Source: Candidatus Altimarinota bacterium
GTDB lineage: Bacteria; Patescibacteriota; Gracilibacteria; BD1-5; UBA6164
DNA: 50,750 nucleotides
Direction of reading: 5' to 3'
Assembly (NCBI GenBank): GCA_019454605.1
Contig: JACFNZ010000007.1
Span: forward strand, 1-50,750
Shown here: positions 28,146-30,285 of the stretch, in pieces
How the letters are laid out: the number at the start of each line of letters is the position of its first letter
How positions within the stretch are numbered: the first letter of the stretch is position 1
Notes under the pieces: model-generated
The model's input: only the letters and a program-made list of their open reading frames with translations
Database searches by the model: none
What the model was told of the DNA's origin: nothing
Program-made: the position numbers and the translations under genes

Positions 28146-29783
28146 TTAATTAATAATATCAATAACTTTTGCTTTTAATTGTTTTTTTCAATTCCATTCA
28201 TCTTCCATCAAATCAAAAATAATATTTAATGTTTTTTTACCTTTTAGTTCATCAAAATATTCTCAAAATCAAAATCATAAAATACTTATTCAATACTTAT
28301 TTTTTATGGTAATATGTTCTTTGGTAGTTCATAAATATTCTATTTTTTCAATTTCAAAGTCTTGAAACATAAAAACAGGCTTTAAATTACCTATTCCATA
28401 AGGTTTATATTTTTTAATTTTATCAATCAAACTAAATCAAAACTCCTCTATGTTTAAAATCTTATCAACATTTAAAGACTTTATATTATTTGAAAAATCA
28501 ATGGAGTTTATTTTTTTAGTAAATTCTTTTTTAAATTCTTCAAATTTATCTACTGATATAGAAAATCAAGCAGCTTGTTTATGTCATCAAAAATGCAAGA
28601 AATAACTTTTATATTTTTCTAAATATTCAACTAAAGAAAAATACTCAGGACTCCTACAACTAGCTACAAGTTTATCTTTTTCTTTTTTTAAAACTATTGA
28701 TGGTTTAAAAAACATTTCAGTAATTCTTCAAGCAACTATTCAAATAATTCAATGCTCTATTTTATCACTATCATAAAATATGATATTATTATTTGGATCA
28801 ATATTTTCTAAAGCATCTTGAAAAAATATTTTTGTTAAATCTTTTCTTTTATTATTTATATTTTCAATATCTTCTATAGTTTTTTCAACACTTTCTGTAT
28901 TATTTAATATCAAATTAACTGCTTTATATGGAGTATCCAATCTTCAAGCAGCATTTAATCTAGGTCAAATTAAAAATCAAAATAAATCAGCATCTAAATC
29001 ATTATGTATTTTATCTTCTATCAATTTCTTAATTCCTAAAAAGCGAGTATTTTTAATTTGTTTTAGCCCTTCTGTAACTATTACTCTATTTTCATCAATT
29101 AATGGCATACAATCAGCTACTGTTCATATTGCAGCAATATCTATACTTTGAGTTATATATTCTTTTGCTTCTTTTTCTTCTAAAAATTCAAAAGCTAAAG
29201 CACTCATTAATTTAAAAGCAACTCAAGCTCAAGCAAGAAAAGAAAAAGGATATAAACTATCAAGTCTTTTTGGGTTTATTATAGCAATTGCCTCTTTAGG
29301 AATTTCATCAGGAACAGCATGGTGGTCAGTAACTATTACATCTACTCCCAAACTTTTAGCATATTTAATTATTTCAATATCTTTAGTTCAACAATCAACT
29401 GTTATTATCAATGTAACTCAAAGAGAATGAATTTCATCTATAAAATAATTTTTTAATCAATATCCATCTGTAATCCTATTTGGCAATCTATAACTAGCTA
29501 GCAATCCTATTTTTTTAAAAAAATGCATTAAAATAGAAGTCGATGTAACTCAATCAACATCATAATCTCAAAAAATCATCACTTTTTCATTATTTTCTTT
29601 TGCTTTTTTTATTCTATCTACAGCTTTTTCCATATCTGGAAGCAAGTATGGATCATACAAATCATCTATATTTTTATTTAAATCTAAGTTATCAAATCTA
29701 TTTTTTAAAATCTCTTCAATATCTAAAAATTTAGTATTTTCATCAAAAATTATTTTATTTCACCTTATACTTAATTTATCCAT
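28146..29783 (-). CDS. recJ: single-stranded DNA-specific exonuclease RecJ
   Basis: The 545-aa protein is full length for RecJ. The DHH phosphoesterase domain has MIFGDYDVDGVTSTSIL, DCGTKDIEIIKYAKSLGVDVIVTDHHAVPDE and IWTVADCMPL-type residues (IGTVADCMPLIDENR). The DHHA1 domain has SRSPEYF-like CRSPEYFSLVEYL and the HKQAAGFS motif, followed by an OB-like C-terminal domain (KPYGIGNLKPVF). It degrades ssDNA 5' to 3' in recombination and repair with RecR nearby. Many motif glycines are UGA. Confidence 0.95.
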
Positions 29784-29847
29784 TTTTATTAAACTTATTA
29801 TTTTTTATATTAATTATTATATATTTATTTAAAAAATTTCAAAAATA

Positions 29848-29873
29848 AAAGAGACCTTTTTAAAGATCTCTTT
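29848..29873 (-). terminator. terminator of the 69-aa foreign-looking gene
   Basis: On the - strand AAAGAGATC (29873-29865) pairs with GGTCTCTTT (29856-29848), followed by TTATTTTT. It begins 12 bp after the UGA of the gene. A code-25 reading would run through the hairpin to a TAA at 29831-29829. Confidence 0.7.
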
Positions 29874-29885
29874 AGTTACTCAAAG

Positions 29886-30095
29886 TCAGAATGTTATTTT
29901 AATAAAATCTTTCAACGAGTTAGATACTTCACTTCCACACTTTGTGTAAACTTTGTCATTTTGTTGGCCAAGTTTATAGCCAACACTTTTTCCATTCACA
30001 TAAACACCTCGGTCTTGTCCTCGCAACCCAGAAGGTACTTTCACTCGGACTTTTTTACCAGTGCTTGTTTCCATATTTGTATCAATATATGCCAT
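29886..30095 (-). CDS. 69-aa protein of foreign composition, ends at UGA
   Basis: This small gene stands out. By hand count it is about 36% G+C, well above its neighbours. All eight glycines are GGN (GGT, GGG, GGA, GGC), although UGA is the main Gly codon in neighbouring genes, and three of its four arginines are CGA. It has a strong SD (AAAAAGGAG), a TTGCTT-17-TATAAT promoter, and stops at UGA just before a terminator. With UGA as Gly it would continue 19 residues through the hairpin. The product starts MAYIDTNMETSTGKKVRVKV and looks like a small beta-rich protein with one Cys. No family is recognised. Recent transfer from a standard-code organism is the simplest reading. Confidence 0.6.
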   Translation of the reverse strand: MAYIDTNMETSTGKKVRVKVPSGLRGQDRGVYVNGKSVGYKLGQQNDKVYTKCGSEVSNSLKDFIKITF

Positions 30096-30127: not shown

Positions 30128-30156
30128 ATTATATTCAAAATATAATAAAAAAGCAA
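30128..30156 (-). promoter_or_regulatory. promoter of the 69-aa gene
   Basis: On the - strand TTGCTT (30156-30151) and TATAAT (30133-30128) have a 17-bp spacer. The leader then reads TTTAACTAAAAAGGAG, a 16-base match to the leader of the small ORF at 14142-14249. Confidence 0.6.
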
Positions 30157-30209: not shown

Positions 30210-30285
30210 GCTCTCATAGCTCAGTTGGAAGAGCACCAGGTTGCGAACTTGGTTGTCGTAGGTTCGAGCCCTGCTGGGAGCACCA
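30210..30285 (+). tRNA. tRNA-Arg (anticodon GCG)
   Basis: Acceptor arms GCTCTCA and TGGGAGC, discriminator A and encoded CCA are present. D arm AGCTC...GAGC is canonical. The anticodon stem CCAGG/CTTGG (one G-U) encloses TTGCGAA, anticodon GCG, reading CGC and CGU. The T arm has AGGTTCGAGCCCT. Most bacteria instead use ACG deaminated to inosine by TadA, so GCG hints that this deamination may be missing. Confidence 0.95.

Follow-up and report, generated by a model that had tools for sequence, protein, structure and literature searches.

A conserved small gene family of code-25 Gracilibacteria with UGA at the end of its reading frame

The reassignment of UGA to glycine (genetic code 25) has been described in SR1/Absconditabacteria and Gracilibacteria (PMC4032931, PMC8629427), and for a BD1-5 relative it was proven by proteomics, as peptides with glycine at UGA were detected and none was unique to UGA read as stop (PMC4032931). 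Code-11-compatible phages, i.e., phages with no in-frame UGA within genes, with UGA at gene ends and with backup stops nearby, are predicted to infect Gracilibacteria (PMC10746230). In ciliates, where context-dependent termination (PMC4967479) concerns the whole gene set, a codon that is apparently sense in most genes ends a gene when it stands close to the mRNA 3' end. Genomes are usually regarded as having reassigned a codon either throughout or not at all. In the case of prfB (encoding RF2), a programmed frameshift at an in-frame UGA senses the capacity of the cell to terminate at UGA.

The small gene analyzed in this work lies within a window (i.e., the whole analyzed stretch of DNA, 50,750 nt) of a code-25 genome, but it shuns UGA inside its frame and treats UGA as its end. 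It resembles the genes of code-11-compatible phages in lacking in-frame UGA and in having UGA at the end; however, it is chromosomal, syntenic and, judging from its relatives, vertically inherited, and 13 of the 16 intact family members tabulated have no backup stop before the terminator. With ciliate context-dependent termination it shares a codon that is apparently mostly sense and a gene end near the mRNA 3' end, although here a single small family is concerned, RF2 was not found, and UGA near the ends of other genes stays sense. If the gene acts as a switch (discussed below), its UGA would, like that of prfB, be a sensor of UGA termination capacity; prfB was not found here, however, and its UGA is located inside the frame, whereas that of the small gene is at the frame end.

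The small gene and its host genome

The gene is encoded on the minus strand as a conserved, UGA-free frame of 69 codons (30095-29889), closed by UGA at 29888-29886. Its eight glycines are specified by two GGT, two GGC, three GGA and one GGG, with no internal UGA, all three arginines are CGA, and the G+C content is 0.36, which confirmed all counts given in the preliminary description. The same applies to the Shine-Dalgarno sequence AAGGAG (30107-30102, minus strand), read from the sequence ahead of ATG and having GGAG/GGAGG equivalents upstream in relatives, and to the intrinsic terminator directly after UGA, i.e., an 11-bp hairpin (29873-29848, minus strand) with a T-tract, the stem beginning 15 nt downstream of the U in the terminal UGA. 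A good promoter had also been claimed. The candidate read from the sequence (TTGCTT-17-TATAAT, 30128..30156, minus strand) has a perfect -10 element (TATAAT at 30128-30133) and the -35 element TTGCTT at a spacing of 17 nt, but a promoter scan revealed no excess of such sites over shuffled sequence (4 vs 4.1). The strong Shine-Dalgarno sequence and the monocistronic layout suggest a well-expressed gene.

The neighbors of the gene are a divergent tRNA-Arg(GCG) gene (30210..30285, plus strand), kept in orthologous loci, and, downstream, a recJ-like gene of the DHH family (28146..29783, minus strand) written in code 25, with 25 UGA codons. Under code 25 the small-gene frame gains, as previously described, 19 residues (GLGVTKEIFKKVSFIFEIF) through the hairpin, up to TAA at 29831-29829; this tail (18 more codons and TAA, 29829..29885, minus strand) is unconserved in relatives. 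The TAA is located at +57 and the T-tract begins already at +38, i.e., there is no UAA/UAG before the terminator. The peptide across the terminal UGA would be FIKITFGLGVTK if this codon is decoded as glycine, and the C-terminus would be FIKITF if it ends the protein.

A structured RNA in place of a gene was considered because of the high G+C content for this genome, and was rejected, as most substitutions leave the protein unchanged (dN/dS of about 0.1 for the closest pairs) and Rfam matched only tRNAs in the window. The 69-aa protein is predicted to adopt a small beta-rich fold with one C-terminal helix (mean pLDDT 82.6, pTM 0.64), for which the fold search returned nothing with E below 0.001. 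No second intergenic ORF with ATG and a Shine-Dalgarno sequence, at least five GGN codons, no UGA and a UGA end was found across the 1.0-Mb genome.

The genome of the window (G000; 1,003,338 bases, G+C 0.218) has the features of code 25. UGA constitutes 84.5% of its glycine codons (14754 UGA vs 2699 GGN), and CGA accounts for 2% of arginine codons genome-wide; the preliminary description had noted UGA as the main glycine codon of the neighboring genes. A tRNA with anticodon UCA is encoded at C8:58572-58650 (labelled Sec by ARAGORN), and the only release factor found is of the RF1 type (motif PET); RF2 was sought in this genome and not found. A single release factor was also identified in each other carrier of the small gene with a match, G018 excepted; in carrier G124 the search found none. 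The additional factor of G018 (a 500-contig, 2.7-Mb bin) has the RF2 motif SPF and is encoded on a UGA-free contig (L210, G018:C153), and this standard-code RF2 probably comes from a contaminating bacterium, which could conceivably be a partner. A sub-threshold Rfam match in G000 (C2:35603-36070, L088), having a CCA end, is probably a tmRNA; in its possible tag, read by eye (ANNRIAKGLNAFKKALTPSFAPTFA), glycine is encoded by GGT and the stop is TAG. Among the 685 ORFs in G000 with a length of 150 aa or more, the stops of which were set by construction, 617 end with TAA and 68 with TAG. UGA occurs within the last three codons of 56 of these 685 genes, and its share of glycine codons in the last 5-10 codons is 72-73% vs 84.5% overall.

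Distribution and inheritance of the family

Convincing relatives were found only inside one family of the class, their public names being Gracilibacteria/Patescibacteria MAGs. They form two subfamilies, i.e., type 1, including the window gene (G000, G001, G003, G007, G125, G032, G018, and G030), and type 2 (G006, G024, G124, G031, G122 with two copies, G019, and G026), the proteins of which are shorter and usually end with GLIK. Beyond this family, no members were detected in 353 class genomes or in a 380-genome sample of the phylum. The search for a homologue in standard-code bacteria and phages, proposed in the preliminary description, found none: public-contig matches were all to Gracilibacteria/Patescibacteria MAGs, phages, plasmids and IMG/VR viral contigs contained no homologue, and the best matches in Pfam, NCBIfam, PHROGs, PDB, and BFVD were non-significant.

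Type-1 orthologues are present in seven other code-25 genomes. The order of divergent tRNA-Arg(GCG), small gene and recJ is shared by six genomes (G000, G001, G003, G018, G125, and G032), and in G007 the tRNA-Arg(GCG) gene is on the same contig as the small gene. The gene is thus syntenic in five genomes besides that of the window, but it is missing from the congener G002, in which recJ lies within about 140 bp of the tRNA. The absence from G002 and from many family members indicates that the gene is dispensable. Compared with the window copy, the small protein is 67% identical in G003, 65% in G001, 55% in G007, and 52% in G018, which is just below the values for RecJ in the same order (70, 68, 60, and 57%), and dS between the window genome and its congeners is 1.3-3, i.e., synonymous sites are saturated. 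Based on the synteny, the RecJ-matched divergence and the saturated synonymous sites, the gene is vertically inherited and lineage-specific to code-25 Gracilibacteria and did not arrive recently. The preliminary description had put forward a recent transfer from a donor with the standard code, the gene being caught before its stop was changed; this is rejected in view of the syntenic code-25 orthologues, the divergence like that of RecJ, the saturated dS and the donors not found in the searches above. The refuting condition named there, i.e., orthologues in related code-25 genomes with a conserved longer C-terminus, gave a split outcome, as such orthologues exist, yet the longer C-terminus is not conserved in them.

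In other genomes, the interval between tRNA-Arg and recJ contains UGA-free small ORFs (L121 of G017 and L128 of G012) or a code-25 transposase-like ORF (L131 of G011), all unrelated to the small gene. Attenuation of recJ by ribosomes entering the terminator was rejected as a general role, since the recJ start is some 560-620 nt more distant in G125 and G032, and the type-2 genes sit at other loci.

The foreign-like codon usage of the gene, the unrelated inserts in this interval and the code-11-compatible phages reported for the clade (PMC10746230) would fit dual-code mobile DNA (phage or plasmid), which repeatedly entered the interval from unsampled standard-code sources. We regard this as quite unlikely, considering that homologues are lacking in phages, plasmids, IMG/VR and the 380 phylum-wide genomes, that none occurs outside the family in the 353 class genomes, and that divergence tracks RecJ; moreover, UAA or UAG would be expected as the stop of a genuine dual-code gene.

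The window genome also carries a two-gene cassette of the same family (G000:C6:158265-158722, L014), localized between a pilin-like gene and leuS. One of the genes (C6:158549-158722) is a type-1 copy frameshifted at an A-run, the second frame of which reaches TGA at the equivalent place. The other (C6:158268-158483) is a type-2 gene with eight GGN codons and TAA at the aligned end (KKIGYIK-TAA vs KSQGLIK-TGA).

UGA as the last codon of the frame and its avoidance in the body

All 16 intact members tabulated (15 genomes, seven genera) close with UGA where the conserved domain ends, and this is retained even though the domain end has moved by one or two residues in G032 and G026. The C6 copy with UAA at the same place is outside those 16. 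In the bodies of the family, all 131 glycine codons (100 counted and 31 read from translations) are GGN and none is UGA, vs 42-86% UGA among the glycine codons of flanking genes; conserved glycine columns switch among GGA, GGT, GGC, and GGG, with TGA appearing in none of them. The Fisher test for terminal (16/16) vs internal (0/100) UGA gave P = 6e-20, a value uncorrected for shared ancestry, as each of the two subfamilies may stem from one UGA-ended ancestor. Inertia from such an ancestor is disfavored because synonymous sites are saturated.

Alignments revealed that the sequence after UGA is unconserved and differs even between congeners. The read-through tails (3 to 127 codons) have no common sequence, the base at +4 may be C, G, T or A, and no 3' context is shared. 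The distance from UGA to the terminator stem is 6-24 nt across the members, as for an ordinary stop. In 13 of the 16 there is no in-frame UAA/UAG before the terminator T-tract, compared with 1 of 47 control genes (Fisher P = 7e-10, kinship again ignored). The controls were those of the 685 ORFs of G000 that have a strong hairpin, the one exception having its T-tract upstream of the stop. The script overlooked five bulged hairpins, which were assessed from their folding and by visual inspection. Because no UAA/UAG precedes the U-tract, code-25 translation of these 13 would run off the mRNA, and transcripts mostly without a stop do not sit easily with efficient translation of the gene. In G001, G125, and G032, TAA is located 9-12 nt past UGA, and the read-through product would be just 3-4 residues longer.

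These data show that selection keeps the body UGA-free and the last codon UGA, and leaves the sequence beyond unconstrained, for which the best reading is that selection sees UGA as the end of the protein. As the UGA end is kept and the sequence after it ignored, we infer that UGA acts as the end at least sometimes, and TAA at this position in the C6 homologue argues that termination occurs here and that no glycine is required. Taken as an evolutionary statement, the earlier claim that UGA is still used as a stop holds, since all intact orthologues end there and nothing beyond is conserved. No other UGA-ended genes were found in G000, and no convincing additional family of this kind in about 1.0 Mb (~85%) of G001.

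The same conservation pattern, the placement of UGA relative to the terminator as for a normal stop, and the signs of good expression (the strong Shine-Dalgarno sequence and the monocistronic layout) are also consistent with UGA truly terminating in normal growth through an unrecognised site-specific release or stalling activity, in which case the 69-aa protein would be made constitutively, without any switch. This appears unlikely, as RF2 was not found and there is no common context after UGA. The presence of UGA in the last three codons of 56/685 genes demonstrates that nearness to the 3' end alone cannot terminate, and makes a general 3'-end-dependent termination at UGA unlikely. Without any UGA-reading release factor found and with UGA not excluded near gene ends, the gene does not fit context-dependent termination; neither does it fit an ordinary code-25 gene, as no UAA/UAG precedes the terminator and the extension past UGA is unconserved.

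Regarding the body, the codon-adaptation comparison upheld the foreign-looking codon usage: the small gene is among the most atypical coding genes (rRNA/tRNA-overlapping ORFs aside), with low likelihood under both the genome and the ribosomal codon tables and GC3 of 0.25 vs 0.085. The chance of no UGA among eight glycines is 3e-7 at the genome rate and 0.11 at the rate of the S-layer gene of G000. In the S-layer (SLH) genes (G000:C3:84570-87896, L190:9252-12609 and homologues), glycine UGA is strongly depleted across the family, i.e., 22/92 in G000, 0/82 in G001, and counts of 0-14 in other carriers, where the matches are partial in several genomes. The S-layer protein is presumably the most abundant one, and this depletion suggests that, in abundant proteins, translational selection favors GGN at the expense of UGA. 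Strong expression can thus empty a gene of UGA. Consequently, the GGN-only body, which the preliminary description treated as a sign of foreign origin, is atypical but constitutes weak evidence of such origin, because very highly expressed genes of the clade avoid UGA too.

These observations bear on the reading in which UGA is simply glycine, the body owes its codons to high expression, and the terminal UGA, inherited as a glycine codon, is followed by a tolerated tail. The nearly UGA-free S-layer genes, the probability of 0.11 and the glycine meaning proven in a relative (PMC4032931) speak for it. We nevertheless consider it improbable, as UGA is shunned at 131 sites yet kept at the one preceding junk, the tails are unconserved even between congeners, 13/16 genes would give non-stop mRNAs, and a homologue has TAA at this position. 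High expression lowers, rather than raises, the likelihood that a terminal UGA would be conserved as glycine. It also covers the GGN body but neither the terminal UGA nor the arginines, which are all CGA in the small gene and all AGA in the S-layer genes of G000 and G001, and was therefore rejected as a full explanation.

Several other genes poor in UGA were noticed. A secreted glucosaminidase (PF01832) is UGA-free in G000 (C5:11056-11580, 0/12 glycines) and G001 (L157:11185-11713, 0/10), with the same neighbor in both, some CGA and a TAA stop, and is a second vertically kept UGA-free gene. Two adjacent genes, PAS-domain and chemoreceptor-like (G000:C6:65838-67395; UGA at 0/9 and 1/14 glycines), are likely a recent acquisition, and the UGA-free gene C3:79716 of G000, having no relative in 35 other genomes, looks like another.

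Possible role of the terminal UGA

We tentatively favor the explanation that this is a conditional gene, the proper product of which would be made only under conditions in which UGA is not read as glycine. More cautiously still, the family, kept under the old meaning of UGA, may possibly constitute a code-dependent switch that yields a functional protein only when UGA loses its glycine meaning, e.g., upon an attack on tRNA-Gly(UCA), when a release factor invades the cell, when glycine is limiting, or when translation takes place in a partner cell with the standard code. In the mechanism that we infer, a ribosome reading UGA as glycine would enter the terminator region and then either run off the mRNA, with rescue by tmRNA, or add a Phe-rich tail, and the read-through product would probably be removed. 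UGA would stay undecoded when tRNA-Gly(UCA) is uncharged, cut or titrated; alternatively, a UGA-reading release factor might arrive with a code-11 phage or with mobile DNA of another kind. Then the protein would be released or halted at its native C-terminus, the UGA-free body making full translation possible under such conditions, and the gene would report the loss of UGA-glycine decoding.

The UGA end in 16/16 members, the GGN-only bodies, the unconserved tails and the rarity of UAA/UAG before the T-tract favor such a switch, as do the single RF1-type factor, the UCA-anticodon tRNA and the tmRNA candidate in G000. Since code-11-compatible phages are predicted for the clade (PMC10746230), conditions in which UGA is a stop have a possible ecological source. 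On the other side, proteomics of the BD1-5 relative yielded no peptides unique to UGA-stop (PMC4032931), read-through in G001, G125, and G032 adds only 3-4 residues, the GGN-only body is explicable by high expression, the TAA-ending C6 copy shows that UGA is inessential in some members, and the gene is dispensable.

The UGA-free body, the non-native codon usage and UGA rather than UAA at the end could also indicate a gene meant for translation in a standard-code partner or prey receiving DNA or RNA, with UGA keeping the product of the native code inactive; Gracilibacteria are indeed thought to be host-dependent (PMC11452946). However, no delivery system, signal or partner is linked to the gene, and UAA would do equally well in the partner, which makes this explanation most improbable.

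The small gene is a conserved, unexplained exception to the cell's own genetic code. Gene callers applying table 25 will mis-end such genes. If the old meaning of UGA has been kept across seven genera, in cells in which no release factor for this codon was found, a single gene can stay outside the code of its cell, and the code difference may serve this gene as a signal. It is thus a concrete target for work on the fate of UGA in code-25 cells and on the monitoring of lost sense decoding.
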